45,715 nucleotides of DNA from Ignavibacteriales bacterium (GTDB lineage: Bacteria; Bacteroidota; Ignavibacteria; Ignavibacteriales; SURF-24), in the NCBI GenBank assembly GCA_026390815.1, contig JAPLFH010000048.1, positions 1 through 45,715 of the forward strand, in the 5' to 3' direction. This document shows positions 8,570-41,004 of the stretch, in pieces. Each line of letters begins with the position of its first letter. Position 1 is the first letter of the stretch. The position numbers and the translations under genes are program-made. The notes beneath the pieces were generated by a model, which made no database searches, had not been told where the DNA came from, and was given only the letters and a program-made list of their open reading frames with translations.

Positions 8570-8620
8570 TTTTTAAATCCTCCGATTTGTAATTTTAAAA
8601 CTTTTTATCATTGATAATTA

Positions 8621-9133: not shown

Positions 9134-9144
9134 TGTGTACCTCT

Positions 9145-10821: not shown

Positions 10822-10838
10822 AATCTCAGCTCCGTTTT

Positions 10839-11810: not shown

Positions 11811-11825
11811 TAGAACAACCGATTG

Positions 11826-14800
11826 TCAATCAATTTTATACGGCAGATTAAAAGATTTAAAGAAACTTGCAGAAAAAGGATTTCTTGAACTTCCCGCATT
11901 TAATAAGTAGGTAACAACAACATCGTAAGAATTCTCTTTTCTAAAGAACCAGTTAAAAATATACTGGGAGGATGATTCTCCAATAGATGCTGAAGCTTCA
12001 TTCAGCAACCTGAACAAAGACCATTCTCCATCATAGGCTTTTGAATCACTTGTTCCATAACCGCGGATTGATATATTCATTTTAGCCGTTGGAGTTCCTT
12101 TGCTTCCGGGCCAGGAATAATCTGTCCAGAAAGAAGCACCCATTTTATAATAATTCTCAACGTTATCAAGATTAAGATAAACTTGTTCAACAACCGGCTT
12201 AGGAGTAACGATTGGTTTAGAATCAGGAAGCTGCGGTTTTAATTTGAACGAAATATTTAAATCACCGCTTTTAAATAATGTGGCGCTTATATCATCCGCT
12301 CTTTTATAGGCAGCTAACAATTCATTGGAAATATTTATTCCTTCGTTTTCCCACAAATTAACTTTCCATCTTTCTTTATTTATGAATGAGCTTAATTCAT
12401 CATTGAAAAAACTCCAAAGTATGCCGCCCTGAGGTTTAAAGAAATCTTTGAAATCCTGAATTGGAACATCATTGTTAGATTTTTTAAATGGAAATGAGTT
12501 AGCCATAGTTTTGTTAAACACATCATAAACTTTTGTTTTCCACTGCTCATTAATATAAAGCGAAGCATCCGAAAGTATAGCCCGCCAGGTAAGTTTAACC
12601 GGATCGGTAAAAAGTCCCTGGAGCGCTGGTGTACTAAATAACGCACCTTTAATTGATTGAAGCGCAGTAGGTAATTCCACAGCGCGCTGGCTTAATACTT
12701 TAACAGCATAATCTTTGGTTAAATCCTGCGCATCTTTAATCGATTCAATTACTCCACCGATATTACCATATTGAGCAATAATTGCATTCAAATCATTGCT
12801 GGCAGAACCATCCGGAGCTAAAATTAATTTTCTGTATTTATTAATTTCTGCAAGATTGGGATTTGTTGAACCTGAATTTGCTGAATTTTTTTTGTTTTGA
12901 GTTGTATCCTGCGGAGATTGAATATCTACAATTACCTGTAATTGAGTAGCAAAAGTTTTTAAAATTAATACTAGCGGAGATCCCACTGGGTCACTTAATA
13001 TCTTTAAACTATTTGCAGCCAAAGGAACAGATTCAAAATCGCCGAACTGGATACTTTGAAGAAATTGAACCCAGGCTTGTTTATAATCGTTCAAGTACAT
13101 TAACAATAATTCATTTCTAACATCTTCGCTGTTAAGTTCTTTTGTTGGTTTTATCTGTTGATCTCCCATTACCCAATCTTCCTGCCCTGGATTCTTACTT
13201 TCATTTATGATTGCTTCCTGCATATAATTCTTCCAGCCATCGGCAGTAAAAATATGTGGTATTTTTAAATCGGTCTTCATCAAACTGGAAAATCTTCCAC
13301 CGATTACTTGCTCAAGTGTAAGATCATTAGAAAATTGGTTTGTACCTTTCTGCTTTAACCGGGCATATAAATTTTCTGCATTTGGTTGATATTGAATTCT
13401 GCTTCTTACTAAGCTTATCAATACATTATCATTCCTTTCGGGATAAACAGCTTTATCATTAAGTCTTTTAACAATGAATGAAATGTAATTTCTGAAAAGA
13501 TGTTTTAATGAATCTTTGTCTGTTGATGAAGCAAGTGTATTTGGATTTATATAGTGTGATTCTAAAATTTTTGAGAATACATTAACTAAAAACTTATGTT
13601 CAGTTGTATCTAATTTTATACGTTCATTGCCAAGCAGCATATATGCTTTCAAATAATTGTAAATATCCTCACCTGAGTAATCCTGACCATTAGCAAAAAT
13701 ATTAAGTACTCTTTCAATCTCTTTAAAAATATTTTCATTAAAGAAATATTCTGTTTTAGTTATATATAAGTTCTCTAACAATTTTTTAGTTCTATCACTC
13801 CTATCCATTCCAAAGCTTACAAATGATTCAACCGCATTTCCATTTTCTATGTTTTCAATGGTTGACCGTAGATTTTCTGTTTCCTTAAAATTAGTTAAGA
13901 GATTTCCATTCCAATTAATAGATTTAAAGGTATTTGCTGTGCTGGAAATTTTATCCAAGGCATTAGTGCTGCCACTAAATCCAACATATGTGAACAAACT
14001 AAACAGTGAAAGAAACAAGATGGAAGATATTACAACTACTAGCTTTAATGTGTTCAATTTTTTAGTAAAGCCGGAAGTTTGTCCTGCAATGTAATTTTGG
14101 TCACCGATTACAACATCATTCAATAAATCTTTTATGAAATAATTTTTTGTTTCAACAATTTCTTCCGCATCTTCTGTGGATTCTTTTGTTGGTTCAGGAA
14201 GATTAAATTGTTTAGCAATTTGTTTTATTGCAAGATCTAATGGAACACCTTCCTGAGTACCGCTGGTAAAATAAAATCCACGGAATATTGGATTATCCTG
14301 ATACGGATTATGCTGAAAAACTTCACTAATCAGGTGAGTTAACTTTTGTTGAAGGGATTTATATTGGAAAGGGAATAAAAAAACTTTGCGACGCTGTTCT
14401 CTTTTCAAAGGTCCGCTCAGCCGGATTGTTCGAATTTCAAAAAGTTTTTCCGTAAGTTTATTAAACTCAATTTCAAATAAATCTTTTACATTTTGGTTTA
14501 GTTGTTCACTAGGAAAAGTAGCACCCCAAATTTGTGAGCGTTCTATCTCACTAAAGTCTCCGAAATATTCCACAAATCCCTGAATTAAATCGCACTTGGT
14601 AAAGATAAAATAAACTGGAAAATTTACTCCCAGGTTTTGGATTAGTTCATCTATTCTCTGCCGCATATTGGATGCATGTTCATTAAGCTGTTCCTTATCA
14701 GCATTAATTATTTCATCAACATTAAGAGCAATTATTACACCGTTGATGGGTTTTTTGCGTCTATTCTTTTTTAATACATCTAAAAATGCAAGCCATTCAG

Positions 14801-15365
14801 ATCGGTCTTCTGTTTGTGAAATATATCTGCCGGCAGTATCAAGAAAAATTCCTTTAGTAGAAAAAAACCAATCACAATTTCTTGTACCACCTACACCTCT
14901 AAATCCTTCTTTGCCAAATGGAAATTCCAGACCGGAGTTTTGTATAGCTGTTGTTTTACCGGCAGCAGATGGACCAATAATCATATACCAGGGTAGGGCG
15001 TATAATGCAGCTTTGCCAGTTTTACCTTTCCCGATTTTTGAATTCTTTAACGAGGTTATTGCCGCTTCTAACTGTTTTTTAAACTGCTCTATCTCGGCTT
15101 TTTTTTCAGGACTTAAGTTCTGCATATTTGCATCTGCTGAAGCATTTATTGATTGCTCAATCTTTCCAGCTTTTTGAACTTCCTTCATTCGATTGTACAA
15201 CAAAAATATTATTACAACCATAATGAAGAATATTCCGATTCCTATCCGGAATACCATTGACATTCCAAAAATTGAACCGCCAAAATATGCTATTGCCAAT
15301 AAAAGAATAATTACCAATGCAACTATTACATTTCGGCTTCTAAGGATTTTAATGATGCTGTCCAT
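11826..15365 (-). CDS. tssM: T6SS inner-membrane protein TssM (IcmF)
   Basis: Core of the TssJLM membrane complex, spanning the inner membrane and periplasm. The 1179 residues show two N-terminal transmembrane helices (about 13-57), a cytoplasmic GTPase-like module with Walker A GPSAAGKTT at 131-139, DTAG at 176-179 and TKCD at 256-259, and a third helix near 441-463. A large periplasmic IcmF domain follows. The Walker A is intact, unlike in some TssM proteins. The C-terminus (FSASFFKSFNLPYKI) corresponds to the end that contacts the TssJ lipoprotein. tssL is 44 bp upstream, tagF 15 bp downstream. Confidence 0.96.
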   Translation of the reverse strand: MDSIIKILRSRNVIVALVIILLLAIAYFGGSIFGMSMVFRIGIGIFFIMVVIIFLLYNRMKEVQKAGKIEQSINASADANMQNLSPEKKAEIEQFKKQLEAAITSLKNSKIGKGKTGKAALYALPWYMIIGPSAAGKTTAIQNSGLEFPFGKEGFRGVGGTRNCDWFFSTKGIFLDTAGRYISQTEDRSEWLAFLDVLKKNRRKKPINGVIIALNVDEIINADKEQLNEHASNMRQRIDELIQNLGVNFPVYFIFTKCDLIQGFVEYFGDFSEIERSQIWGATFPSEQLNQNVKDLFEIEFNKLTEKLFEIRTIRLSGPLKREQRRKVFLFPFQYKSLQQKLTHLISEVFQHNPYQDNPIFRGFYFTSGTQEGVPLDLAIKQIAKQFNLPEPTKESTEDAEEIVETKNYFIKDLLNDVVIGDQNYIAGQTSGFTKKLNTLKLVVVISSILFLSLFSLFTYVGFSGSTNALDKISSTANTFKSINWNGNLLTNFKETENLRSTIENIENGNAVESFVSFGMDRSDRTKKLLENLYITKTEYFFNENIFKEIERVLNIFANGQDYSGEDIYNYLKAYMLLGNERIKLDTTEHKFLVNVFSKILESHYINPNTLASSTDKDSLKHLFRNYISFIVKRLNDKAVYPERNDNVLISLVRSRIQYQPNAENLYARLKQKGTNQFSNDLTLEQVIGGRFSSLMKTDLKIPHIFTADGWKNYMQEAIINESKNPGQEDWVMGDQQIKPTKELNSEDVRNELLLMYLNDYKQAWVQFLQSIQFGDFESVPLAANSLKILSDPVGSPLVLILKTFATQLQVIVDIQSPQDTTQNKKNSANSGSTNPNLAEINKYRKLILAPDGSASNDLNAIIAQYGNIGGVIESIKDAQDLTKDYAVKVLSQRAVELPTALQSIKGALFSTPALQGLFTDPVKLTWRAILSDASLYINEQWKTKVYDVFNKTMANSFPFKKSNNDVPIQDFKDFFKPQGGILWSFFNDELSSFINKERWKVNLWENEGINISNELLAAYKRADDISATLFKSGDLNISFKLKPQLPDSKPIVTPKPVVEQVYLNLDNVENYYKMGASFWTDYSWPGSKGTPTAKMNISIRGYGTSDSKAYDGEWSLFRLLNEASASIGESSSQYIFNWFFRKENSYDVVVTYLLNAGSSRNPFSASFFKSFNLPYKID

Positions 15366-15409
15366 TATTTATAATTGTTTTTGAGGTTATTAAAAAATTG
15401 ATGACTAGT

Positions 15410-16108
15410 TTAAAGCAGCTTATTTAATATTTGCACAACACTATCAGCTTTACCAGAAACAGACATTGCCATTATCGCATAAAATATTGTTGAGATTACG
15501 ATAGCACCAACCGGATACACCCAAAGTGGTAAACCTCCTTTAGCATATTGAATTACATCATCTTTTGCTTTTCCATTTGGGGAAATTGTATCAATGGCGT
15601 TATACATATCCGGATGAAGTTCTATATTCAAATCATTTATTACCCGTCTCAAATTTTCTGGAGATTGAAGCTGGTACTTTCCCTTAAAGCCAAGAACCAG
15701 GCAGAGGTAGTAAATTTCTAAGACATCTTTGTTGCCAGTAGTTCTTTGTCTAAGCGAATTTATATTATTAAAAAATTCTTCACCTGCATTAAAAGTATCA
15801 AAAAGTTTTAATTGAAGTGGTTCAGATAGCCATTCGCTCTTTTGGTCCCAGGAAGAACTGATTATTGTTTCATCAAGTAAGGCAACCAATGCAAATTTAG
15901 CCTGCTGTATTTTTTCATTTTCGTATCCGGAGCTTCTTCCATTTCGTTCAAAGTCATCAAACATTTCAGTTACTTTTGTTTTGATGGAATTTGCATTACC
16001 ATAATTATTTGTTGCTCTCAATTGAAGAATAAGAATCAAACAATCAGAAGCTACGTCTGAAAGAGGTTTGCGTTTTTGGCTTGATTGTACTTGCTGAACT
16101 GAATTCAT
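15410..16108 (-). CDS. tssL: T6SS inner-membrane protein TssL (DotU)
   Basis: Partner of TssM and docking site for the baseplate. The 232-residue protein has a cytoplasmic hook domain with family landmarks (FALVALLDETIISSSWD near 72-88, FNAGEEFFNNI near 109-119, YLCLVLGFKGKYQ near 133-145) and one C-terminal transmembrane helix (about 197-217). There is no peptidoglycan-binding OmpA domain after the helix, so wall anchoring would need another protein or is absent. The ATG at 16108 is 144 bp after the tssK stop. Confidence 0.93.
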   Translation of the reverse strand: MNSVQQVQSSQKRKPLSDVASDCLILILQLRATNNYGNANSIKTKVTEMFDDFERNGRSSGYENEKIQQAKFALVALLDETIISSSWDQKSEWLSEPLQLKLFDTFNAGEEFFNNINSLRQRTTGNKDVLEIYYLCLVLGFKGKYQLQSPENLRRVINDLNIELHPDMYNAIDTISPNGKAKDDVIQYAKGGLPLWVYPVGAIVISTIFYAIMAMSVSGKADSVVQILNKLL

Positions 16109-16252
16109 TTTTTCAATCCTGTAAATAAGGAAAAAAATTAAAAATTATTGGATTTAGATATCGTTGTAAAGTTTGATTGCTTAATCGTCTCATCATAAAT
16201 AACAATTGAACAATTTTTCTTGGACTATGAATATGTGGAATATGAAAAAAAA

Positions 16253-17602
16253 TTATCCCCCAGGCATTAGCAGAACTAACTCCATTTGCAGAGATTTAAA
16301 TTCCGCTGCAATAAAGAAGGCGATATTATTTTTGGCAATAATTTTATCCCAGAATCTACCTTCCTTATTGATTTTAAAGTAATGCGCTTTTTCATTTATG
16401 GAAATCCCAGCCGGTGGACGCGCTACATACTCAATTGATACACCCTGAATACCAGCCTGATGAACAGCAAAAATTTCTTCGTACGAGGATATCTTAATAT
16501 TTTTTGATAACTCGGAAATTATTTTCTTTTCTGACATTTCACCTTGCACGGTTAGGAAAAATTGAGCATTCATTTGAATAGGCGATAGCTGTCCAACAAA
16601 TAAAGTATCTGCCTGTTTTCTTAAAGGAATAATTACATCACGTCTGGAAACAGTTTTCTGAACATTTAACATTGCATTAATCTCATCAATCAAAAGTTTA
16701 AAAACCTCAGTTAAATGATTATGATCATACATTGGAAATTCCCCGGTCTTCAATCCTAAATTTGAATATGTGGAAAGCTGACCAGCAAGATTTAAAAATA
16801 ATGTATAAAGATTTTCCGGATGAATATGACGCGAAGAATGATAATAATTTAGTAAAGGAATGTAAGTATTAACCGAAAGAAGCATTAATAATATTTCTAC
16901 CTGAGTTAAAGACAATTCAGGTTTCTGAATACTTGCCTGGCTCCGCAATTCTTTACTTTTGGAAACCAAAGCGCCTAAAATTTCTCTGATAAAACTTTGC
17001 AAAACTTCTGATGCAGTAATTGAAATTACCGGAGCGATATAATTTGCATCCATATTAAATTTACCATCAGAACTCCTTACTATTTCACCAATTTTTATTA
17101 CACTAAAATCATCTAATGATTCTTCGCCAAATTTGAATTGGAAATTTGGTTTAACAACTCCAACTGTGCGCATATTTACGCCGGTATTATAATCAAGTAA
17201 TTCCATGTTCTGCAATATGAAGCGTGAACTTTGGGAGTTTGCAGATTCTGATAACTGGCAGTTATTTCCAGTTAATTTTTCTATGGGAATTGTCAAATAG
17301 ACATCTAATTTTTCCGAAGTAGCTGAGAAGGAATCAGCAAAGCTCCTGCTTTTTGGTACTGGATCGTTGTTCGGAATATCAAATACTAACCCGTCGGGCA
17401 TTATTCCACTGCATGCAACAAGCCCAAATGAACCACCGGACAGTGCTGCCAAATCAATTTGAATTTCTTTAAAGCCCCAATAATTTGGATTTAAGTACCC
17501 AAGTTTTGTATTTGTGTAATATTGATTGTATCTATCCGCCTGTTGAAAATGATGCGGATCTAATTTCATTCCTTCGAACCAGATAACCTTCTGTAATTTC
17601 AT
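16253..17602 (-). CDS. tssK: T6SS baseplate connector TssK
   Basis: Trimeric baseplate protein that links the TssEFG wedges to TssL/TssM. The 449 residues start with KVIWFEGMKLDPHHFQQADRY, clearly the conserved TssK opening (V.W.EGM.L.PHHFQQ.D.Y). The middle helical part includes HPENLYTLFLNLAGQLS (about 261-277), also conserved, and the C-terminal head domain has ISIN..HYFKINKEGRFWDKI. Length and ends are as expected. The ATG is at 17602, 68 bp after tssJ. Confidence 0.95.
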   Translation of the reverse strand: MKLQKVIWFEGMKLDPHHFQQADRYNQYYTNTKLGYLNPNYWGFKEIQIDLAALSGGSFGLVACSGIMPDGLVFDIPNNDPVPKSRSFADSFSATSEKLDVYLTIPIEKLTGNNCQLSESANSQSSRFILQNMELLDYNTGVNMRTVGVVKPNFQFKFGEESLDDFSVIKIGEIVRSSDGKFNMDANYIAPVISITASEVLQSFIREILGALVSKSKELRSQASIQKPELSLTQVEILLMLLSVNTYIPLLNYYHSSRHIHPENLYTLFLNLAGQLSTYSNLGLKTGEFPMYDHNHLTEVFKLLIDEINAMLNVQKTVSRRDVIIPLRKQADTLFVGQLSPIQMNAQFFLTVQGEMSEKKIISELSKNIKISSYEEIFAVHQAGIQGVSIEYVARPPAGISINEKAHYFKINKEGRFWDKIIAKNNIAFFIAAEFKSLQMELVLLMPGG

Positions 17603-17670
17603 TAATTTATTATCCTGGTATTAATAATTCAAATTGTTATTTTGTTGGATTCTGAATAACCCCAAATTGA

Positions 17671-18111
17671 TTATTCATTTTTATACGATAAAGAATTTTC
17701 GTGAACTACTATTTCAAATTTGTCATTCCCAGAATCCAAAGATATAATTTGAAGCCAACCATCTTTAGCAGGCGAAAAGAAATCACCAACAACACCAAGG
17801 TAAGCCGCATCTTTTTTAATTTCAATCTCTTTTGATTGTACAGATTCTCCTGGTACCAATGTTTTTTCAAATTTGGAGTTTGGAATTAAGTCATCAGCTA
17901 AAATTTCCTCTGGACTTCTAATTAATGATTCAAAGCTGGCGTTCCTGAATTTATCAGCATTTTTTAATTGATAAATTCTAATAACAATTGCATTATTATT
18001 ATTGCAATCATCATCGCATTTTAAATTGATTTTAACTGTTTGCACTCCGCCGCATCCGGATAATACAAACGAAGTAACAAGAAAGGGGAGTAGTAAAAAT
18101 AATTTTTTCAT
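17671..18111 (-). CDS. tssJ: T6SS outer-membrane lipoprotein TssJ
   Basis: Outer-membrane lipoprotein that anchors TssM. The 146-residue precursor has a lipoprotein signal peptide: MKK, a hydrophobic core, then the lipobox Leu17-Ser18-Gly19-Cys20. The mature part fits a small transthyretin-like beta sandwich: paired strands, VVIRIYQLKNADKF (typical TssJ 'R.YQLK....F'), and VPGESVQSKEIEIKKDAAYLGVVGDF, matching the family's 'YLGVVA.F' segment. Its presence separates this system from Bacteroidota T6SS-iii, which lacks TssJ. Confidence 0.9.
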   Translation of the reverse strand: MKKLFLLLPFLVTSFVLSGCGGVQTVKINLKCDDDCNNNNAIVIRIYQLKNADKFRNASFESLIRSPEEILADDLIPNSKFEKTLVPGESVQSKEIEIKKDAAYLGVVGDFFSPAKDGWLQIISLDSGNDKFEIVVHENSLSYKNE

Positions 18112-18132
18112 ACCGCTTCCAGTTTTAAATTA

Positions 18133-19371
18133 TTAAAATTCATTTTGAGATTTACCTGAAATTCTTTTCTGATATCCTTTCATAAAAGATGGTCTAAAAA
18201 ACTTCTTTTCTATATGATAAGGATCAGATATATACTTTTTATAATTTTCCTTAATGCTCTCCAATATTTTTGCTTTTTTAGAGCCAGGTAACATTTTTCC
18301 AAAATCTAAACCTGGAGTTTTTTTAATTTTATTTTCCATCTCAGCTTCAATTAGCTCAGGATTTAAACTTTGTAAAAGTGATTTGCTGCCTTCTGTAACC
18401 GAATTCATATAACCTTCCAGGAGACCTATTTGATGTGCGAGTAATTTTTGTGCTTCTTCTTTTAGCAAAAAGATCCTCTTTTTTTCTTCTTCGGCAGAAA
18501 CCGCAGGATTAAATAAAAATTCTTTTAACTCCTTTAAAGAACCAGTTGGCAATGTATAAAAAACTGTTACCCCAAAAAATTCCTGCCTGAAATGAAGAAA
18601 GCCTTGGATTAGTTTTGAAAAAGTATCGAGTAAGATATCTAAAATGTTTGTAAAATGGGAACTAAGAGAATAATCCTGGGAAAACGGTTCGTTCGGATTC
18701 ACCATTGGTTCTATCGTTTGCTTGAAAGATTGCGATTTATTTAATTCAGGCTCATCAACAATTTCTTTTTTGTTAGGATCGTACCCTTTTTTCTCAAATG
18801 GGTGATATTCCTTTCCCAAAAATTTTTCAACAAAAAATTCTGCTAAAATTTTATTAACATCATTTGCTTCAATCCTATTAAGAGATTGCAGTACAGAGAA
18901 TCTTAATGCATCTGATTTTACCTGAGATTTTTCTAACGAATATTTTTCTGCTATTTTTCCCAAGCTTTCAACTATATTGTTCATCTCATCAGCGTATGGA
19001 CTTGAGAACACCATCGTTTTTTGATTGTCATCAATTATTATTTTCTTTTCCTCTTGATCAATTAAAAGCAGAGTTTCAAGTTCATAATCTCCAATTTTTA
19101 TTTTGTCACCAGATTTTAAAGGATTTTCTTCTCCTGCTTCAATTTTTTGTTCGTTCAGATAAGTAAAATTTGCAGATTCGAGATCGATTAATTGAAGTAT
19201 ACCTTCAGTATCAATAATCCGCGCATGCTTTCTAGAAATAATTTTAAAAGCATCTGGCAAGGCAATATCGTTACTTTCATCTCTGCCTAAAAAAATTGGA
19301 AATCGGGTAAAATCCAATTCTTTTGAATAAGAAGGATCGGATTGTTTTTTAATAAATAGTTTTAATTTCAT
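18133..19371 (-). CDS. tagH: T6SS FHA-domain protein (TagH/Fha-like)
   Basis: FHA scaffold protein, first gene of the operon. In related systems the FHA domain binds phosphothreonine and relays the on-signal from PpkA. The 412 residues have an N-terminal FHA domain with GRDESND at 29-35 and ISRKHARI at 45-52. After an acidic linker comes a C-terminal domain (about 225-412) like that of T6SS FHA proteins, ending in DPYHIEKKFFRPSFMKGYQKR. The ATG at 19371 lacks a clear Shine-Dalgarno sequence; AAACATATCAA lies three bases upstream, as also before tssE. The operon promoter should be in the AT-rich DNA just above 19372. Confidence 0.87.
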   Translation of the reverse strand: MKLKLFIKKQSDPSYSKELDFTRFPIFLGRDESNDIALPDAFKIISRKHARIIDTEGILQLIDLESANFTYLNEQKIEAGEENPLKSGDKIKIGDYELETLLLIDQEEKKIIIDDNQKTMVFSSPYADEMNNIVESLGKIAEKYSLEKSQVKSDALRFSVLQSLNRIEANDVNKILAEFFVEKFLGKEYHPFEKKGYDPNKKEIVDEPELNKSQSFKQTIEPMVNPNEPFSQDYSLSSHFTNILDILLDTFSKLIQGFLHFRQEFFGVTVFYTLPTGSLKELKEFLFNPAVSAEEEKKRIFLLKEEAQKLLAHQIGLLEGYMNSVTEGSKSLLQSLNPELIEAEMENKIKKTPGLDFGKMLPGSKKAKILESIKENYKKYISDPYHIEKKFFRPSFMKGYQKRISGKSQNEF

Positions 19372-20322: not shown

Positions 20323-20355
20323 AAAAAAAAAGCGGTTCCATTTCTGGAACCGCTT
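20323..20355 (-). terminator. Intrinsic terminator of the large T9SS protein
   Basis: On the minus strand, AAGCGGTTCCA pairs with TGGAACCGCTT around a four-base loop and runs straight into nine T residues. It lies 23 bases after the stop codon at 20379. This is a textbook Rho-independent terminator and insulates the gene from the T6SS promoter region. Confidence 0.92.
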
Positions 20356-20378
20356 CTAAGATGACCCCCGAAGCCCGA

Positions 20379-23300
20379 TTACTTCTGTAATATCATCTTT
20401 TTAGAAATGCTTACCGATGGGGAGGTGAGTTTGTAAATGTACACACCACTTGCCAATTCACTTGCATTAACTGAAACATTATAATTACCTTGCTCAAGTT
20501 CTTGATCGATTAAAGTTCTAACAGTCTGACCGAGCATATTGTAAATTGATAATGTAACTTGTCCTCTCATTGCAATTGAAAATTCAATTGTTGTACTTGG
20601 ATTGAACGGGTTTGGATAGTTCTGGCTCAACTTGAATTCCGAAGGTAGTTCGTTATTCTTATCAACAGAAGTTGTTCCGTTAACACTCTTGAATACTTTA
20701 CCACTCTTTGTTCCAACAAACAAATCATTGGAAATAGGATTTACTATCATTGAGCTTATTCCGTATCCATCCATTCCGATTGATTTCCAGTTCTCGCCAC
20801 CATCTTTAGAAACGAATACACCATTTGCAACTGAGCTTGCATAAATGTTATCATTACCGTCTACCGTCATTGAGTAGATATATTTTGCAGTTAAGCTGCT
20901 GTTAACCTTAATCCAGTTTTCACCATTATCAACTGAACGGTATAAGCCATTACCATAAGTACCGGCATAAAGAACGCCTTTAGAATCTTTTGTTAATGAC
21001 CATACATAATCATAACCAATTGTCAATTCATTCCATTTGCTATTTGCTTTATTGAATTTAACTACTCCTGAACCAAATGTACTCGCATACAAATCGGAGT
21101 TTGAGTTAATAAGCAGACTTTGAACTGAAAGATTAGTTAAACCATCATTTATAGAAGTCCAGGTTTTTCCGTTATCATTAGAAGAATAAACGCCTGCGCC
21201 CCATACTGATGCGAACAAGCTGCCTTCATTATCAGACGTAACTGTTCTTACATCTTGCATTGATAAGCCAGCAGATACCCAGGTATTTCCTTTATCTAAT
21301 GAACGATATAACCCGGTTTCTGTTCCTGCTAACAATTCATTTCCGTTATTAGCAATAGACCAGATTGACTTTGTACTGATATTGTTTACTTTATTCCAAG
21401 TGTTGCCACCATCTTTTGAACTTAAGATTGATCCATCAACTACACCAGCAAACAAATTGCCTTCAGCATCACTTGCAAGTGTGGAAACAACAGAGTTAGA
21501 ATTAAAGTTATTCATCGATTTCCAGTTATTCTGATCTGAGTTTCCAACTGGACCATTATTATCGAAAGTAATATGAACGACTGCTTTTCCAAAATCATCT
21601 TCTGATTCAACGCCATTGTTTGGAGTAGAATCAGGATCGTATTTGGAAGATGCAGAAACTTCTGCAACGTTTGTAATATGATCAACAGGAATGTTGCCAA
21701 TGAATTGAGTATTGTTAAACTGACCTTGACCTGTAATACTCTTTGCAATCATTTGACCATTCTGAACACCAGATACAAAGTTTACTGCTGCGAATGGTGC
21801 AAGAATAGAGCCTCTAACATCAATTCCCTGAATTCTAAGAGTTGATGCGTTATAGAAATTGTAAAGGACGTTTGATTTTTCTGTTCCAAATATTACTAAT
21901 CCACCAGTCCAGGAAACATCAACACCATCGATATTAACAAGAACTACAGAACCGTTTGGTACATCAATTTCAAAATTGTTAGCTGAAGATAATTCAGCAC
22001 CAGAAACTTTAAAGACGTTAAGGAATGGGTCGGTTCCCTTTAAGAACAATCCACCCCACTCAAATTTGGTTGTACCATTTACTGTATAACCAGAAAGCTG
22101 AGTAGAAAGATTAGTCAGGTAAGTTCTGGCTGCTGCAAAATCAATTGGATTTCCTTGATGAACATCGCCATTATTGATGCTAACAAGATAAATTGGAAGG
22201 TTAGATGAACTTCCATAAACCACATTACCACTATAAACAGCGCCACTGTGGTAGGTTAGATTTTCACCAACTATCAAAACATCTTCTGCGCCATTGGAGT
22301 TAGTAAGTTTATCACCAACACTATAGCAACCTAATTCAGCGCTTCTTCCAACTGCCATCTTACCTTCGGTATCTGATGATGGTTGGTTAATATCATAAAG
22401 AACAAAAACATTGTAACCTTTTGCAAGACCTAAATCGAAATTACTGTTGTTCATCTGGTTTACGTTAACTTTTACTGTTATACTTAAAACTGCACTAGCA
22501 CCATTTGCTAATGAACCAACAATCCATTTTCCAGTTGTGTTATCATAAGAACCGTTTGTAGAAGATGAACTAATATAATCTAAACCAGAAGGAAGAACAT
22601 CTTTTACTTCAACATTATCAGCATCCTTTGCACCTTTATTAATTACTGTTATTGTGTAAGTAATGTTGTCACCATTTTTGGGGTTTTCATCACTTACAGT
22701 TTTTGTTAATTCTAAATCTGCATTATCGCAAGCTGGGGCAGAGCATACATTGGGATTCCAATAGTAATCAAACCCTTCTCCATTGTGAATTACATTTCCA
22801 TTACAATCAAGAACATTTACACCAAAGTGAATTTCTACGATTTGATCAGTACATCTAACACCAGGCCAAATTCCATTGATAGTAAAATCTGTGCTGCCGG
22901 TTATATCCTGGTTAATATAATGTGTGCTGTTATCAACGCTGCCATCATTTGGTTGAACAATATTCCAGGCTAATTGTAATCTTGCACTACTTGGATTTGG
23001 AGTAAGATCAACGTGTCCGGTAACTGAAGCCGCTTGAGAATTCAACCAACAAACAGCCATAGAGTTGTTTTGGGCACCTACAACTGTAAAGAAAGCTGAC
23101 CAATTAGTAACACAACCAGTTTCTTTCTTATAAATACCAGCGTCCCAGGTTAAATCGTTTTCACCAGCTTCTAAATTTGTGCATACTGTCATTCCAGTGT
23201 TGATGTCAACATCAGAATCAATTGCATCGTTAATACCAGCATCTTTCTGTGTAAATAAATATCCGGTAGGTAATACAAATTGAATTTTGTAATCACCGGA

Positions 23301-26006
23301 GACAAGATCACTAAATAAATATAAACCATTATTGTCTGTTGTTGCTTCTGCTAATAATTCATTGTTGCAATTAAAAAGACTAACTAATACTCCAGGAACT
23401 CCTAATTCACCTTCATCCTGAACGCCATTTTTGTTTTTATCTTCCCAAAGTCTATCACCGAGTGAACCTTTAGGAGCAGGTAGAACGTATATTCCAGCGT
23501 CCCAGGTTAAATCATTGGTAGCAATTGGTAAAGTAATACAGGTTGTTGTTCCGTCGGTAAGTTCAACATCAGAGTCAAGTGCATCGTTACCAACATCTTT
23601 TAATGTAAATGCATAACCGTTTGGTAATACAACTTGTACTTTGTAGCTGCCAGCTGTTAGATCACTAAATAAATATAAACCATTGTTGTCTGTTGTTGTG
23701 GTTTTTAGAACTGTTCCGTTGCAATCAAGCAATTTAACAGTTACACCACCAACACCAGTTTCATTATTATCTTGAATTCCATTTTTATTAACATCGTTCC
23801 ATACTTTATCGCCTAAAGAACTCTTGCAATTTACAGTTAATGTAGCACTGCTCTGGAATGTTACATATGCAGATCCATTGCTTGGATGACCTTCTATGGT
23901 TGCAGTGTTTACCAACTGACCACAGTTGTTTTCTGTAACTGTATAGGTTTGGGTATAAGTTTGAGTTTGACCAGGATTGATCAAATCAAAATGTTTAATA
24001 CTATGATTACCTGATGGATTTAATAAAGCATCAAATAAATCAGCGCCGCCTGCGTGTGCAACATCGCCACAATTGCTTACTGTAAATGTATAGGTAACTA
24101 CATCACCCGGTTTGGCAGTTGTAGGTGCAACTGATTTTTCCATACTGATGCAAGTCTTATAAAATCCGAAATCAATTGTAATATTATTTGAACAATTTAC
24201 CGTAACTGAAGCAGAATGTGTAGTAAGATCACCATCACTGTCTTTCGTATCATCGCCTTGATCTTTTTTACTTGCGTACCATTTTGTTTGATCAGTATTG
24301 AAGAATAAACCACCAGAAACAAAGTTGCTTGCTGCAATCCGTACAGTATAAGTTCCGTTTACAACATCTGTAAATGAATATTTTCCATTTACATCTGTGG
24401 TAACAGTTTGAAGAACTTGATTGCTGTTATTAACTAATTCAACTTGAACGCCTTGGATGCCAGGTTCGTTTGCATCTTGTTTTCCATCATAATTCAAATC
24501 GTGCCATACAAAATCGCCGATTGAGCTTTTGCAAACTACCGGTGGGCAAGCCAAATATCCTTTATCAACTGTTCCATTATCAAAATTTTCGTTCATTGCA
24601 GTTGCAGCATCATTTAATTGACTTAACGTATAACCACCAAGACTTCCGCCGCCTATTGCTGTATTTGCAATTGCTAAAAATTCATTTACAGTCTTACCTG
24701 CAAGAGTACCGGAACTTATAACTAAGTCGCCAAGGTGAGTGCTTTTTATTCCAAATGCACCAACCTTATCAAATTCTACACTTAATGTTAATGCTACTAA
24801 TTGTCCTGCAAGAACAGTAATCTTTGAAGTTGGGTTATTATAATTTTGAGTTAAAGCATCCGCTGTTCCACCTTGTGGTATGAATCCTTGTACTGCTGAT
24901 GAGCTTGTTAGAGTTATTTTATAAATTCCACCAATAACAAGTCCATTTGGAAAAGCTGATGGAAAATATTGTTCTCTTATATGTCCAGGTGTACTGTTTG
25001 GTTTGCTTCCCCAACCACCCTGGGTATAAGTTGTATAACCTTTTAAATCGCAATCTCCTTCATTCCAATTTGCGCTACCTTTTACTATTCTTGTAACTGT
25101 TGTTGGAGTTGCTAAAACTAATTTTTGATAAATATCAGGAGCCGCAATGTGAAAATAACGTGTACCTTGAGGAATTATTGCGTTAGCTGTTGCAGTAATT
25201 TCTGATGTTAAACTATTTCCCATTGCAAGGCTTACTAATGTAGTCATTCCTGCAGCATCGGTTTGTAAAGATGAAGTGCTTAATGATCCGGTAGAAGCTG
25301 TAAAATTGATTGTTAAAGCGTTAACAGGAGCTCCGGTTTCATCATAAGCAGCTGCGTTAAATTTTGCTGCATTACCTACAAGGTTGTTTTGATTTGGAGG
25401 TAATATTTGTAAAGTTTCAACTGGTTTAGTTGTACCAGCATTTGCTACTGCATCTGCAATAATTACTAAAGCTCTTGCTTTTATAACTGCGTCATTAACC
25501 GTATTTGCATCTACCCCGTCCATAAAATGCCAAATAGCAACCTGAAGTGCTGCGGCTTCTTTTTTTACATCTGCTCCAGAAGGAACTGACTTATATGGAT
25601 AATAATTGTTAAGTATATAAGTAACTTCTGAAGGAGTGAAACCTGCATCAGTATAAGGATTAGGATCACTTGGTGAGTCCCACTTAATATGATGTTGAAT
25701 ATCAATACAGTAAAAACTTGCTGAAACACCATTTATTGTACCAGCAAAAGTACCTGCGTAAACATGCAGGCTGCTATTATCATAAGGATTAGTAAAAGTT
25801 ATATCACTAACCTGATCTGTACCGGTTACTTTAGCTGTGCTTGTACCTAATAACTGGTTGCCAGAGTTGTTAAACCTGGTAGGAAAATTTGTTGAAACAT
25901 TTTTGTTTCCACCAACTACAGGTTCATAAGCAGATGTAACCTGTACACCTAAAAACAAAAAGATGATAGAGAAAAGCACCATCAAATTTGTAAGTCGATT
26001 TTTCAT
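20379..26006 (-). CDS. Large T9SS-exported mosaic adhesin with predicted thioester domain
   Basis: Predicted cell-surface or secreted protein of 1875 residues. In order: signal peptide (1-26); a domain resembling Cys-Gln thioester adhesin domains (about 65-180), with Cys100 in FYCID and Gln155 in LQVAIW; an Ig/Big-like domain (about 195-290); an SdrD-like B repeat (494-615, 'SSIGDFVWHDLN.DG.QD..EPGI.GV'); a DUF11-like domain (617-725); two more SdrD-like repeats (728-840, 845-958); a Cys-containing beta domain (960-1090); a DUF11 repeat (1093-1185 plus 1443-1480) that seems to enclose a choice-of-anchor-A domain (about 1187-1440); five Asp-box (S.D.G.TW) propeller repeats (1495-1775); and a T9SS sorting domain (1792-1875). 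ATG at 26006 follows a GGGAC site. Its role is probably attachment; the ligand is unknown. Monocistronic, ending in a strong terminator. Confidence 0.88.
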   Translation of the reverse strand: MKNRLTNLMVLFSIIFLFLGVQVTSAYEPVVGGNKNVSTNFPTRFNNSGNQLLGTSTAKVTGTDQVSDITFTNPYDNSSLHVYAGTFAGTINGVSASFYCIDIQHHIKWDSPSDPNPYTDAGFTPSEVTYILNNYYPYKSVPSGADVKKEAAALQVAIWHFMDGVDANTVNDAVIKARALVIIADAVANAGTTKPVETLQILPPNQNNLVGNAAKFNAAAYDETGAPVNALTINFTASTGSLSTSSLQTDAAGMTTLVSLAMGNSLTSEITATANAIIPQGTRYFHIAAPDIYQKLVLATPTTVTRIVKGSANWNEGDCDLKGYTTYTQGGWGSKPNSTPGHIREQYFPSAFPNGLVIGGIYKITLTSSSAVQGFIPQGGTADALTQNYNNPTSKITVLAGQLVALTLSVEFDKVGAFGIKSTHLGDLVISSGTLAGKTVNEFLAIANTAIGGGSLGGYTLSQLNDAATAMNENFDNGTVDKGYLACPPVVCKSSIGDFVWHDLNYDGKQDANEPGIQGVQVELVNNSNQVLQTVTTDVNGKYSFTDVVNGTYTVRIAASNFVSGGLFFNTDQTKWYASKKDQGDDTKDSDGDLTTHSASVTVNCSNNITIDFGFYKTCISMEKSVAPTTAKPGDVVTYTFTVSNCGDVAHAGGADLFDALLNPSGNHSIKHFDLINPGQTQTYTQTYTVTENNCGQLVNTATIEGHPSNGSAYVTFQSSATLTVNCKSSLGDKVWNDVNKNGIQDNNETGVGGVTVKLLDCNGTVLKTTTTDNNGLYLFSDLTAGSYKVQVVLPNGYAFTLKDVGNDALDSDVELTDGTTTCITLPIATNDLTWDAGIYVLPAPKGSLGDRLWEDKNKNGVQDEGELGVPGVLVSLFNCNNELLAEATTDNNGLYLFSDLVSGDYKIQFVLPTGYLFTQKDAGINDAIDSDVDINTGMTVCTNLEAGENDLTWDAGIYKKETGCVTNWSAFFTVVGAQNNSMAVCWLNSQAASVTGHVDLTPNPSSARLQLAWNIVQPNDGSVDNSTHYINQDITGSTDFTINGIWPGVRCTDQIVEIHFGVNVLDCNGNVIHNGEGFDYYWNPNVCSAPACDNADLELTKTVSDENPKNGDNITYTITVINKGAKDADNVEVKDVLPSGLDYISSSSTNGSYDNTTGKWIVGSLANGASAVLSITVKVNVNQMNNSNFDLGLAKGYNVFVLYDINQPSSDTEGKMAVGRSAELGCYSVGDKLTNSNGAEDVLIVGENLTYHSGAVYSGNVVYGSSSNLPIYLVSINNGDVHQGNPIDFAAARTYLTNLSTQLSGYTVNGTTKFEWGGLFLKGTDPFLNVFKVSGAELSSANNFEIDVPNGSVVLVNIDGVDVSWTGGLVIFGTEKSNVLYNFYNASTLRIQGIDVRGSILAPFAAVNFVSGVQNGQMIAKSITGQGQFNNTQFIGNIPVDHITNVAEVSASSKYDPDSTPNNGVESEDDFGKAVVHITFDNNGPVGNSDQNNWKSMNNFNSNSVVSTLASDAEGNLFAGVVDGSILSSKDGGNTWNKVNNISTKSIWSIANNGNELLAGTETGLYRSLDKGNTWVSAGLSMQDVRTVTSDNEGSLFASVWGAGVYSSNDNGKTWTSINDGLTNLSVQSLLINSNSDLYASTFGSGVVKFNKANSKWNELTIGYDYVWSLTKDSKGVLYAGTYGNGLYRSVDNGENWIKVNSSLTAKYIYSMTVDGNDNIYASSVANGVFVSKDGGENWKSIGMDGYGISSMIVNPISNDLFVGTKSGKVFKSVNGTTSVDKNNELPSEFKLSQNYPNPFNPSTTIEFSIAMRGQVTLSIYNMLGQTVRTLIDQELEQGNYNVSVNASELASGVYIYKLTSPSVSISKKMILQK

Positions 26007-28731: not shown

Positions 28732-29994
28732 ATGTTTGAAAGTGATTTGAAAACCGAAATAGTTACAAGTAATTCGATGGAAAGGATTGTTCAGCAATCT
28801 GTTTTGCAATTCAATAAAATGTGGTATCAAAGCAGTGTTAAAGCTCCGCAGATAGGAATTACTTATTCAATATTAGGAAAACTAAAACGGGAAAGACAAG
28901 TAAAACGTTTTTTCAAACTTTTAGAAAAGGAAATAAAAAAGAATTCGAATAATGAAATTGACTTATTGAATAAGTCGGCACTAAATCCTGCTATTAAAAA
29001 ACTTTTAAGTACAACATTTGATTTTGAAGATGAGCAGGTTGGCCTTTTGTTTAAGAATAATTTTTTAGAAGTTACCAGACAATTTATTAAAACGGCAAAA
29101 AGTTTTGATCATTCAATAAGTACTAAAGACATATTCCAGGCTTGCCGTAATGTTTGGACAATGAATTGCCTTCAGTTGATGCTTGGACTGCGGGTTGAGT
29201 TGACACCATCGATTTTTGCTTATAGTATGCTTTACCCTTATACCGATAATTACATTGATGACCCGGATATAACACGCGAAAATAAAATATACTTCAATCA
29301 ACGACTTTCAAACAGGTTGGCAGGCGAAGCACTTGATCCAATTGATTTTCACGAACAAAAAATTTATGAACTTATTGGAATGATAGAAATTCAATATGAT
29401 CGCTATCTTTATCCAAATGTTTACGATAGTTTGATTTCTATTCATAAAGCGCAAATGAAAAGCCTTGCTTTGCTGGATTCAGATACTCATCTTTCCGAAG
29501 ACGAACTATTGAACATTAGCATTGAAAAGGGAGGCACATCGGTTCTTGCAGATGGTTATCTTGTAGCAGGAACTTTAAATGATGCACAACGATTGTTTAT
29601 GTTTGGTTACGGTGCTTTCCTTCAACTTGTTGATGATTTGCAGGATGTAAAGCAGGATCTTGAGTGCGGGCTCAAAACAATTTTTACTCGGGCAGCAAAA
29701 AAAAATCCTTTAGATGTTTATGCAAACCAAACTTACAATTTTGGTGATGAAATAATTTCCTATTGTGATTCTATTATTCCAAAACACCTAAACACAATCA
29801 AAGGATTAATGAATAAGAGTGATCAGATTCTGATGACTGAAACTATTGGACTTTCATTCATTTATTATTCGAAAAATTATTTTAAGCAGATTGAAACTTA
29901 CTCACCGTTCCGTTTTTCCTTTTTGAAAAATGAGCAGGATAAATATCCATACTACCAAAAACTCTTTACACAGTTATCCGAAAAATGTTTATAA
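28732..29994 (+). CDS. Class I isoprenoid-synthase-like protein (orphan)
   Basis: The 420 residues look all-helical, with two Asp-rich motifs in the positions used by class I isoprenyl synthases and terpene synthases: YTDNYIDDPD at 170-179 and LVDDLQDVKQD at 299-309. In that superfamily these bind Mg2+ and the diphosphate. The rest does not resemble canonical GGPP/FPP synthases: there is no clear GKR substrate motif, and the N-terminal approximately 130 residues look specific. It could be a terpene cyclase, a prenyl-chain synthase or a degenerate relative; product unknown. ATG at 28732 with AAAGGAG upstream. It stands alone between non-coding gaps of about 440 and 214 bp, with no carotenoid or squalene genes beside it. 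Confidence 0.65.
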   Translation: MFESDLKTEIVTSNSMERIVQQSVLQFNKMWYQSSVKAPQIGITYSILGKLKRERQVKRFFKLLEKEIKKNSNNEIDLLNKSALNPAIKKLLSTTFDFEDEQVGLLFKNNFLEVTRQFIKTAKSFDHSISTKDIFQACRNVWTMNCLQLMLGLRVELTPSIFAYSMLYPYTDNYIDDPDITRENKIYFNQRLSNRLAGEALDPIDFHEQKIYELIGMIEIQYDRYLYPNVYDSLISIHKAQMKSLALLDSDTHLSEDELLNISIEKGGTSVLADGYLVAGTLNDAQRLFMFGYGAFLQLVDDLQDVKQDLECGLKTIFTRAAKKNPLDVYANQTYNFGDEIISYCDSIIPKHLNTIKGLMNKSDQILMTETIGLSFIYYSKNYFKQIETYSPFRFSFLKNEQDKYPYYQKLFTQLSEKCL

Positions 29995-35164: not shown

Positions 35165-36151
35165 TTGGATATTACAGCTTTAAATGAAAAAATAAAAAAC
35201 GAAAGTGCTTTCGTCGATTTACTGATGAATGAAATTGGCAAAGTGATAGTTGGGCAAAAGGCTATGGTTGAACGACTTGTTGTTGGTTTGCTTGCCAATG
35301 GACATATTCTTCTGGAAGGTGTGCCTGGATTAGCTAAGACGCTTGCAATAAAATCGCTGGCTGCGGCAATGAAAGCTAAGTTCCAGCGAATTCAATTCAC
35401 TCCCGATTTGCTGCCTGCAGATTTAATCGGTACAATGATTTACAACCAAAAGGATGGAAATTTCTTTATTAAGAAAGGCCCGATCTTCGCAAATTTTATT
35501 CTTGCTGATGAAATAAATCGTGCCCCGGCAAAAGTGCAAAGCGCTTTGCTGGAAGCAATGCAGGAAAGACAGATTACAATTAGTGAAAGTACTTTTAAAT
35601 TAGAAGAGCCATTTCTTGTTCTTGCAACACAAAATCCAATCGAGCAGGAAGGTACCTACCCATTGCCAGAAGCGCAGGTTGATAGGTTTATGTTGAAGAT
35701 AAAAATCACTTATCCTTCGCGCGAAGAAGAGTTGAAGATAATGAAGCAGAATGTAGAGAATTTATCCAATGATATAATCCAGCCGGTTATTACTCCACAG
35801 GATATTCTTAAAGCCAGAAATTTGGTGCAGGAGATTTATGTTGATGAGAAAATTGATCGCTATATACTTGATATTGTTTTTGCAACAAGGAATCCAAAGG
35901 AATACGGGCTTCCGAATTTGACAGATTTAATTTCTTACGGTGCTTCACCGCGTGCATCTATAAATCTGGCACTTGGAGCGCGTGCAATGGCGTTTATTAA
36001 AAGAAGGGGTTATGTAATTCCGGAAGATGTCCGTAATATTTGTTATGATGTTCTTCGTCATCGTGTGGCTGTAACTTATGAAGCGGAAGCAGAAGAAATT
36101 ACTTCGGAAACAATCATCCAGGAAATTTTGAATAAAATTGAAGTGCCTTAG
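35165..36151 (+). CDS. moxR: MoxR-family AAA+ ATPase
   Basis: AAA+ chaperone-like ATPase that partners with von Willebrand factor A (VWA) proteins; first gene of the aerotolerance operon. The 328 residues have the MoxR Walker A variant GVPGLAKT at 52-59, Walker B with FILADEINRAP at 111-121, then the strongly conserved AKVQSALLEAMQERQ and a sensor-1 ATQNPIEQEGTYPLPEAQ segment (about 157-174). The sensor-2 region SPRASINL (about 260) is present. The start is TTG at 35165, with GAGG eight bases before; no in-frame ATG fits the domain start. Confidence 0.93.
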   Translation: MDITALNEKIKNESAFVDLLMNEIGKVIVGQKAMVERLVVGLLANGHILLEGVPGLAKTLAIKSLAAAMKAKFQRIQFTPDLLPADLIGTMIYNQKDGNFFIKKGPIFANFILADEINRAPAKVQSALLEAMQERQITISESTFKLEEPFLVLATQNPIEQEGTYPLPEAQVDRFMLKIKITYPSREEELKIMKQNVENLSNDIIQPVITPQDILKARNLVQEIYVDEKIDRYILDIVFATRNPKEYGLPNLTDLISYGASPRASINLALGARAMAFIKRRGYVIPEDVRNICYDVLRHRVAVTYEAEAEEITSETIIQEILNKIEVP

Positions 36152-36154
36152 CCC

Positions 36155-36180
36155 CTAAATCCCCCCAAGGGGGACTTTAG
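36155..36180. repeat. GC-rich hairpin repeat A (moxR-DUF58 gap)
   Basis: CTAAATCCCCC (36155-36165) pairs with GGGGGACTTTAG (36169-36180) with one bulged C and a 3-base loop, four bases after the moxR stop. This 'CCCCTAAATCCCCCCAAGG' sequence looks like a dispersed intergenic repeat rather than a gene-specific terminator, since no U-run follows. Confidence 0.7.
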
Positions 36181-36237
36181 AAGAACAAGTATGAGTTATT
36201 ATGAAAACGATTATTGAATATATTATTGAATTCAATT

Positions 36238-36258
36238 CCCTCTCCCTTGGGGAGAGGG
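36238..36258. repeat. GC-rich palindrome repeat B (moxR-DUF58 gap)
   Basis: CCCTCTCCC (36238-36246) and GGGAGAGGG (36250-36258) form a perfect 9-bp stem with a 3-base loop, followed by TTGGGTGTGGGC. The block ends only 16 bases before the ATG of the DUF58 gene and occupies its ribosome-binding region. It looks like a dispersed repetitive extragenic palindrome. Confidence 0.75.
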
Positions 36259-36274
36259 TTGGGTGTGGGCTTTT

Positions 36275-37150
36275 ATGTTAACCAAAGAATTACTTAAACA
36301 AGTCCGTCAAATTGAAATAAAGACCAAAGGCGTTGTTAACCAGGTCTTCACTGGCGAATACCATTCTGTATTCAAAGGAAGAGGAATGGAGTTTTCTGAA
36401 GTGCGCGAATATCAATTCGGTGACGACATAAGGAATATAGACTGGAACGTTACAGCACGGTTTGGTCATCCTTATATAAAAATATTTGAAGAAGAACGGG
36501 AACTTACTGTAATGCTTCTGGTTGATTTGAGTGGGTCATTAGGATTTGGAAGTGTTGAAAAAACAAAACAGCAAATTGCAGCAGAATTAAGCGCTGTATT
36601 AGCTTTTTCTGCTATGAAGAATAATGATAAAGTTGGATTAATTTTATTCAGTGATAGAATAGAACGTTTCGTTCCGCCCAGAAAAGGAAGAACCCACGTT
36701 CTTAGAATAATCCGGGAGGTTCTTTCTTTTGAACCTGATGGGAAAGAAACCAATATTAAAGCTGCACTTGAGTATATGAACAATGCCATCAAGAAAAGAA
36801 GTATTGTTTTTTTAATTTCGGATTTTATGGACTCCGGCTATGAAAGAATTTTGAGAATAGTTGGAAAGAAACATGACTTTATAGGCGTGGTTTTAACTGA
36901 TGATAAAGAAAATTTAATCCCTAAAGTTGGTCTGATTAAAATCCAGGACGCTGAAACCGGCGAAGAAAGATACATCGATACTTCCGATAAAGTTTTTCAA
37001 AAGTGGTTTGTTAGAAACCGGCTTGAAAATTTTGAACAAAGAAAATCATTGTTTATTAAGAGCCGGCTGGATTCAATTAGTATTAATACAAATAAATCTT
37101 ACATAAAACCTTTAATTGATTTCTTCCGATTACGCGAGAGACGATGGTAA
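36275..37150 (+). CDS. DUF58 protein of the MoxR/Bat operon
   Basis: The 291-residue cytoplasmic protein has the DUF58 signature FSEVREYQFGDDIRNIDWNV (about 40-59) followed by a VWA-like domain with DLSGS (84-88) as its metal-site motif. In MoxR operons this protein is taken to be a partner of the ATPase. ATG 36275 (MLTKELLKQ) fits the family start; an upstream in-frame GTG at 36263 would begin inside the repeat sequence. No good Shine-Dalgarno sequence is visible because the palindromic repeat sits there. The stop overlaps the next ATG by 7 bp. Confidence 0.9.
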   Translation: MLTKELLKQVRQIEIKTKGVVNQVFTGEYHSVFKGRGMEFSEVREYQFGDDIRNIDWNVTARFGHPYIKIFEEERELTVMLLVDLSGSLGFGSVEKTKQQIAAELSAVLAFSAMKNNDKVGLILFSDRIERFVPPRKGRTHVLRIIREVLSFEPDGKETNIKAALEYMNNAIKKRSIVFLISDFMDSGYERILRIVGKKHDFIGVVLTDDKENLIPKVGLIKIQDAETGEERYIDTSDKVFQKWFVRNRLENFEQRKSLFIKSRLDSISINTNKSYIKPLIDFFRLRERRW

Positions 37151-38103
37151 AAAAAGTATTATTAGCAATATTTGTAATAGGTTTTACATTCATTTCTGTT
37201 AAAGCGCAGAGTGTTTCTGTTAAAGCTTCGGTAGATTCTTCACGCTATCTTGTTGGTGATTTTATAAATTATTCCATCATAATAAATCATCCAAAAGATG
37301 TTAGCGTAAATTCTCCATCTATTAAGGATAGCTTAAAAGGAATTGATTTAATAAAAATTGAACCGGTTGCAACAGAAGAAAAAGATGGGAGCGTAACTTC
37401 TACATTTAAATTTATTTTAGCTAAATACGATTCCGGAGATGTTCATATTCCAGCTATACCAATAATCTATAATCGGAAAGGGAATCAAGCTAAAGAAACT
37501 ACATTAACCAACACGGTTTATCTTACAGTAAGTACATTAAATGTTAATCCACAAAGTGATATTAAGGATGTGAAAGAACCGATCAAGATTCCTTTGGATT
37601 GGCGATTAATTTTGATGTGGAGTTTAATTGCTCTGGTTATTATTGCTGCTGGAGTTTATGGATTTTTATATTATAGGAAGAAACGATTACAAAAACTTGG
37701 AATAATTGAAGAGATAAAAAGAGAACCGTACGAAATTGCTTTGGAAGAACTTAAATTGCTTGAAGAAAAAAAACTCTGGCAGCAAGGCAGGATAAAAGAA
37801 TATCACACTGAGGTTACTGGAATCATCCGCAAATATTTTGAAGGAAGATTCCTTGTTCCTGCTTTAGAAATTACAACAGACGAATTGTTAAATGGACTTA
37901 ATGGGGTGGCAGATGCTGAATCAATTACAAAAATCACTTCTGATTTTTTGAACAATGCTGACTTAGTTAAATTTGCAAAGTTTGTACCGATGAATGATGT
38001 TAATGAAGAGATGCTGAAGCAAGCTTATCAAATAGTAAACGATACAATGCACAAAACAGAAGATAACATGCAAATTGAGTCGGAGGTAGTTGATGTTCAC
38101 TGA
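37144..38103 (+). CDS. BatD/DUF4381-like membrane protein
   Basis: The 319-residue protein has a signal peptide (1-21, ending VKAQ), an extracytoplasmic beta-rich domain (about 22-150) and one transmembrane helix (about 154-174, LILMWSLIALVIIAAGVYGFL). A basic, helical cytoplasmic tail with IKREPYEIALEELKLL follows and ends in a region like the DUF4381 tail (GIIRKYFEGRF... ITTDELL). Its place between DUF58 and batA is the usual slot of this protein. It probably helps assemble the membrane VWA complex; no enzymatic motif is seen. It overlaps both neighbours by a few bases. Confidence 0.75.
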   Translation: MVKKVLLAIFVIGFTFISVKAQSVSVKASVDSSRYLVGDFINYSIIINHPKDVSVNSPSIKDSLKGIDLIKIEPVATEEKDGSVTSTFKFILAKYDSGDVHIPAIPIIYNRKGNQAKETTLTNTVYLTVSTLNVNPQSDIKDVKEPIKIPLDWRLILMWSLIALVIIAAGVYGFLYYRKKRLQKLGIIEEIKREPYEIALEELKLLEEKKLWQQGRIKEYHTEVTGIIRKYFEGRFLVPALEITTDELLNGLNGVADAESITKITSDFLNNADLVKFAKFVPMNDVNEEMLKQAYQIVNDTMHKTEDNMQIESEVVDVH

Positions 38104-39088: not shown

Positions 39089-39146
39089 CTGACTTTATAA
39101 TAATTTTTACATTAAGATATTTATTTAATCAAAATTAAGTTACCTA

Positions 39147-40187: not shown

Positions 40188-40207
40188 AAAAATCAGTTGA
40201 AGTTGAT

Positions 40208-40987: not shown

Positions 40988-41004
40988 AAAGATGGAATAT
41001 TTAC

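Follow-up and report, generated by a model that had tools for sequence, protein, structure and literature searches.

A predicted Class II-like thioester domain at the tip of a putative type IX-exported adhesin from an Ignavibacteriales bacterium

The window analyzed here is a stretch of 45,715 nucleotides from an Ignavibacteriales bacterium (assembly GCA_026390815.1, contig JAPLFH010000048.1), in which a single open reading frame (ORF) on the minus strand (20379–26006) encodes a protein of 1875 amino acids (aa). We consider it probable that this protein is a fibrillar adhesin exported by the type IX secretion system (T9SS) and that its tip is a genuine Class II-like thioester domain (TED), in which a thioester between Cys100 and Gln294 serves covalent attachment. 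Coordinates in this stretch are window positions, and residues are numbered from the start of the ORF. An original prediction, made from the sequence alone, had proposed a thioester domain on a T9SS-exported carrier at 25407–25812, inside this ORF, with a bond between Cys100 and Gln155. Its numbering is right (Cys100 of FYCID is codon 25709–25707 and Gln155 of LQVAIW is codon 25544–25542), and a thioester-domain head on a T9SS carrier is borne out by Pfam, by the fold, and by the T9SS tail, but the Cys100–Gln155 bond is not.

The Pfam TED model (PF08341) matches the whole protein with 40.4 bits against a curated cut-off of 22. In a genome-wide search the window protein was the sole match (47.6 bits, E = 8e-12), and no TED match was found in 14 control genomes. 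Together, the Pfam match, an AlphaFold model, and fold matches in the PDB delimit a thioester domain with an immunoglobulin (Ig) insert at residues 27–318 (25053–25928), the folded part of which covers approximately residues 50–318. The AlphaFold2 run, made for residues 27–318 with a 69-sequence alignment (model residue 268 is Gln294), gave a predicted local distance difference test score (pLDDT) of 92.1 and a predicted template modeling score (pTM) of 0.85. In the model, three strands, the third closing with Cys100, and a fourth precede three helices, after which come a seven-stranded sandwich and the final strands; the second helix holds Gln155 and Trp159, and Gln294 lies just ahead of one of these final strands. 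The domain thus comprises a seven-stranded Ig insert besides a β-barrel and a bundle of three helices and is not the short β-rich domain first envisaged, and the interval originally assigned to it (residues 65–200) cuts the domain and omits the glutamine likely to form the bond.

Class II TEDs lack helix α0 and carry a seven-stranded sandwich of approximately 75 residues between helix 3 and the last hairpin (PMC6194298). Helix α0 is likewise absent from the model between strand D and helix 1 (model strand 92–97 is followed by helix 100–108), and the seven-stranded insert, at model residues 173–252, takes the same place in the chain. The best matches of a Foldseek search against the PDB are both Class II TEDs, EfmTIE86 (6FWY, E = 8.7e-10) and BaTIE (6FWV, E = 1.1e-8), over approximately 290 columns. 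VIA-align gave Z scores of 15.6 for 6FWV (root-mean-square deviation [rmsd] 8.8 over 235 residues), 14.1 for 6FWY (rmsd 6.5, 227 residues), and 10.6 for the Class II TED SaTIE (6FX6; rmsd 9.2, 210 residues). With these proteins the window domain shares the β-barrel and three-helix head and a bond-forming glutamine, here predicted, located behind the insert; it differs in its low identity (12–14%), in the Big_1 (intimin-like) type of its insert, which probably sits at another angle, and in belonging to a Gram-negative, T9SS-exported protein that has no sortase anchor. The insert (residues 199–278; 25173–25412) is defined by the strands of the model and by a profile match to intimin and invasin, on whose structures it superposes alone at 2.3–3.1 Å. 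Big_1 is matched in 60 of the 69 aligned members and TED in all 69. The Class I TEDs, unlike the window domain, have no Ig insert and have the extra helix α0, and their head lobe aligns at 3.2–3.7 Å over approximately 144–160 residues; the VIA-align scores are Z 12.0 for Cpa/Spy0125 (rmsd 3.6, 155 residues), 11.7 for CpTIE (rmsd 3.2, 144 residues), and 10.6 for SfbI (rmsd 3.4, 144 residues). All sequence and fold features open to testing identify the window domain as a TED, and its modeled layout is Class II-like. The suggestion of a convergent origin is disfavored, since homology at the level of Pfam together with the same fold and the same position of the insert argues for descent from the known domain.

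Which glutamine pairs with the cysteine is addressed by conservation, motif, spacing, and structural register. Ten positions of the window domain are Gln or Cys, and only Cys100, Gln155, and Gln294 among them are invariant in the alignment (69/69 in each case), with relatives that share 31–51% identity with the window domain. The predicted thioester cysteine, Cys100 (25707–25709), is part of the sequence YCID, which fits the motif [YFL]C-hydrophobic-hydrophilic of bond-forming cysteines (PMC4450167). Bond-forming glutamines have a weak motif in the last strand, hydrophobic-Q-hydrophilic-hydrophobic-hydrophobic (PMC4450167), which is fitted by YQKLV (Tyr293–Val297, 25116–25130; Gln294 is codon 25125–25127); the residue ahead of the Gln is often Lys in relatives, so this position is loose. 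A pairing with Gln294 gives a Cys–Gln spacing of 194 and one with Gln155 a spacing of 55, compared with 195 in BaTIE (Cys71–Gln266) and 129–204 over all solved TEDs, in which the Gln is in the last strand. Read without gaps, the fold alignments with Class I TEDs have, at their C-terminal ends, a register that places Gln294 on Cpa Gln575, CpTIE Gln267, and SfbI Gln261, which are the published bond-forming glutamines. The TED of the TIE adhesin p34 of Bacillus subtilis plasmid pLS20 offers a further comparison: C68S abolishes function and Gln256 is named by the authors as the partner (PMC8092201), and its sequence has YCID and then YQRLM, which holds Gln256, at a spacing of 188. It resembles the window protein in having a Class II TED at its N-terminus and a stalk behind it; unlike the window protein, p34 is Gram-positive, has a CnaB stalk and a role in conjugation, and has no Gln in its helix motif. 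We conclude that, on the sequences and the model, the partner of Cys100 is most likely Gln294, not Gln155.

The invariance of Gln155 and the proximity of a helix Gln to the Cys in solved TEDs speak for the pairing proposed originally. However, LQVAIW (Leu154–Trp159, 25530–25547; Gln155 is 25542–25544), which the model places in its second helix, represents the TQxxPhiW helix motif with Gln and Trp kept and Thr replaced by Leu, and in a Cpa TED mutation of either this Gln or this Trp in the central helix leaves bond formation intact (PMC4450167, PMC6194298). In solved TEDs the helix Gln adjoins the thioester and makes a hydrogen bond to the Cys backbone but does not form the thioester bond itself (PMC4450167, PMC6194298). 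Given also that every solved TED has its bond-forming Gln in the last strand and that the pLS20 TED needs its Cys yet has no helix Gln, we regard a Cys100–Gln155 thioester as very unlikely. The distance between Cys100 and Gln155 in a model, by which the original prediction proposed to judge its bond, is non-discriminating because the helix Gln adjoins the thioester in solved TEDs. It is similarly far-fetched that the domain is a decayed TED fold in which the thioester is no longer made, as Cys100, Gln155, Trp159, and Gln294 are each fixed in 69 of 69 sequences while just 13 of the 292 positions of the alignment are invariant.

The function of the bond admits other explanations as well. The thioester could be self-serving, acting for instance to lock the conformation of the protein, or could be mostly hydrolyzed, and adhesion would then be noncovalent through the nested β-helix, propeller, or Ig domains, which are further putative ligand-binding domains of the adhesin besides the TED. 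We find this improbable given that Spy0125 is not significantly stabilized by its thioester, that the pLS20 adhesin depends on the Cys for function, and that the putative reactive-site residues are invariant despite the low identity of the relatives. Somewhat less remote, if still unlikely, is a version of covalent attachment with a named target, in which the TED links cells within a species or between neighboring species in biofilms or aggregates or aids contact-dependent secretion. Efficient conjugation of pLS20 requires its TED adhesin (PMC8092201), and next to the window gene lies a complete canonical type VI secretion system (T6SS) cluster (315–19371, minus strand; TssH, G, F, E, Hcp, TssC, B, A, TagF, TssM, L, K, J, and an FHA protein), which could profit from cell contact. 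However, 80 homologous loci showed no T6SS genes in their flanks, and the adhesin gene is followed by an intrinsic terminator of its own (20328–20357, minus strand; 21 bases past the stop codon, a 13-pair stem and then a T run), so the neighborhood looks incidental, and a functional link between the adhesin and the T6SS was rejected on these grounds.

Several observations weigh against a Class II-like TED with a Cys100–Gln294 bond on a T9SS-exported adhesin, which we nevertheless prefer. The rmsd of the full-length superpositions on 6FWY and 6FWV is high (6.5 to 9 Å) and the insert is of the Big_1 type; the high values would fit two rigid parts with the insert probably at a different angle, and the full-length match is compatible with a slipknot threading of the last hairpin. 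Profile searches of the PDB led for the most part to the Ig insert, with marginal matches to Class I TEDs, and the N-terminal fragment by itself, used as a PDB sequence query, gave no match. The register of Gln294, for which the aligned end pairs of model and structure are 280/587 (Cpa), 276/275 (CpTIE), and 277/270 (SfbI), is exact only without gaps near the ends of the fold alignments. An hhalign comparison of the family with the single pLS20 TED sequence gave no alignment, and the equivalence of Gln256 and Gln294 therefore rests on motif, spacing, and fold. Finally, no anchor was identified in the protein other than the T9SS tail.

The signals for export stand at the two ends of the protein. 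Residues 1–26 (MKNRLTNLMVLFSIIFLFLGVQVTSA; 25929–26006), ahead of the TED, read by eye as a Sec signal peptide, with a basic N-region, a hydrophobic core, and small residues ahead of the presumed cut, in line with the signal peptide proposed originally. At the C-terminus, residues 1797–1872 (20391–20618) form a T9SS type A sorting domain, for which PF18962 and TIGR04183 are both over their cut-offs. SprA/Sov, the T9SS translocon, is encoded in the same genome along with at least 150 T9SS tails, in favor of export by this system. There is no LPXTG sortase anchor near the C-terminus; because a T9SS sorting domain stands in its place, the protein, judged by its sequence, is not a Gram-positive thioester, isopeptide, and ester domain (TIE) protein.

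Based on these components, we posit the following mechanism. The protein would be exported by Sec and then pass the Sov/SprA translocon of the T9SS, and the C-terminal sorting domain, as its presence in the tail suggests, would place it on or beyond the outer membrane, where a stalk of SdrD_B and DUF11 domains would hold the tip at a distance from the cell. Once this tip has folded, Cys100, with which the third strand ends, would condense spontaneously with Gln294 of the last TED strands, losing ammonia to form an internal thioester, and Gln155 and Trp159 of the second helix would buttress the Cys backbone. A suitable amine, by precedent a lysine side chain, could then dock by the thioester and the Gln294 carbonyl be passed over to it, joining the cell covalently to its target. 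The precedent is SfbI, whose TED joins its own Gln to a fibrinogen lysine (PMC4450167). The original prediction spoke of adhesins that bind host molecules; here there is no sign of an animal host, and since the relatives are free-living Ignavibacteria, we consider another microbe, kin cells, or matrix material a more likely target than animal tissue.

The TED is present in 33 of 395 genomes drawn from the phylum, 31 of which belong to the order of the window, and, across this Ignavibacteriales-type order as a whole, in 91 of 164 genomes. The 80 loci kept from a contig scan carry titles that are almost all Ignavibacteria, Melioribacteraceae, and Ignavibacteriaceae, with a few Chlorobiota/Bacteroidetes and two Chloroflexota. 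A YPNPF-type T9SS tail ends nearly all C-terminally complete ORFs outside Chloroflexota (L117 is a possible exception), and the architectures range from a TED and a tail (approximately 470–500 aa) to more than 2000 aa, usually with DUF11, pAdhesive_15, and propeller domains. The two Chloroflexota proteins (4042–5793 of locus L085 and 7734–9485 of locus L109, with locus GC contents of 0.59 and 0.61) have a closely similar TED and Big_1 head followed by a hydrophobic-basic tail instead of the T9SS tail; a GEVED region was shown for L109. In a tree of 74 heads, these two sequences group firmly, and the backbone, their place, and that of the window are without resolution. As for a transferred head, also raised in the original prediction, a closely similar head with a different tail occurs in Chloroflexota, but an interphylum transfer cannot be dated, and because the backbone leaves both placements unsettled we claim no direction. 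Protein searches of phage and plasmid collections gave no match, so no carriage by mobile elements was seen. A separate observation from the same phylum is a short ORF of 228 aa (L112, genome G165) that matches TED weakly and carries a PEP-CTERM-like tail; the last-strand Gln motif was not found in it with the pattern used.

Behind the head, a conserved region of approximately 170 aa (residues 319–490, CDLKGYTTYTQGGWGS...; 24537–25052) is not covered by any Pfam family and has similar sequence in many homologs. The SdrD-like repeats expected downstream of the TED were recovered by Pfam as three SdrD_B-like stalk domains: residues ~494–616 (24159–24527) and ~847–960 (23127–23468), each matched in three stretches and with boundaries read from the sequence, and residues 730–839 (23490–23819). 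A DUF7507/DUF11-type stalk domain identified by Pfam (residues 620–713; 23868–24149) lies between the first two. Ahead of the sorting domain, a BNR/Ycf48-like β-propeller at residues 1488–1742 (20781–21545) is suggested by matches to NCBIfam PRK13684 and BNR-type models, all below their cut-offs.

The distal part of the stalk has an architecture of its own, in which an ice-binding-like β-helix is placed inside a DUF11 isopeptide-type domain (21576–22718, minus strand), an arrangement that recurs in more than 30 homologs. The first part of the DUF11 (CLIPPER) domain, recognized by Pfam and by a profile match to the solved CLIPPER isopeptide domain 9IFR, comprises residues 1097–1187 (22446–22718) with Lys1102 and Asp1136; it is followed by a pAdhesive_15/choice-of-anchor A β-helix (PF20597, TIGR04215; residues 1192–1432, 21711–22433) and by return strands of the DUF11 domain, assigned from the model and an invariant Asn, Asn1446 (residues 1436–1477, 21576–21701). 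In homologs found by pattern, pAdhesive_15 likewise interrupts DUF11, with a Lys ahead of it, and the 33 homologs used for alignment have an N-x-A motif behind it; in an alignment of 32 rows, Lys1102 and Asn1446 never vary and Asp1136 almost never does. The model of the DUF11 and nested domains (pLDDT 89.8) matches ice-binding proteins and 9IFR. The Lys and Asn of the presumed isopeptide bond thus flank the nested β-helix on either side, and, as pilins have isopeptide folds that carry inserted domains (PMC12617251), an isopeptide bond spanning the nested adhesive domain is plausible. Gram-negative fibrillar adhesins of the DUF11/CLIPPER type share this stalk domain with its Lys/Asp/Asn set, and a survey of them reports that the isopeptide domains co-occur with Por_Secre_tail; unlike the adhesins described, the window protein has a thioester head and a β-helix nested in DUF11.

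Elsewhere in the window, a same-strand run of ORFs with a MoxR ATPase and BatD (35165–43871, plus strand) resembles a MoxR-Bat operon, and at 1e-5 Pfam gives no match for an ORF of 420 aa (28732–29994, plus strand).

In the 2015 survey by which TEDs were defined, they occurred in Gram-positive bacteria only (PMC4450167), and the open-access library searched contained no paper on TEDs in T9SS proteins. The window protein presents a known kind of domain on an unexpected export platform in a free-living Gram-negative bacterium; as Pfam recognizes the domain, database annotations of such proteins very likely exist. We see about an even chance that the finding extends to covalent thioester adhesion across an order of free-living diderms, in which a T9SS-delivered Class II-type TED with an intimin-like insert would bond other microbes or matrix, and in which the same head is used with other anchors in other phyla. 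The reassignment to Gln294 decides which mutant would be informative. If the bond is real, covalent adhesion would be a more general bacterial surface chemistry, one that is not confined to animal hosts and that makes use of an unrelated export route.

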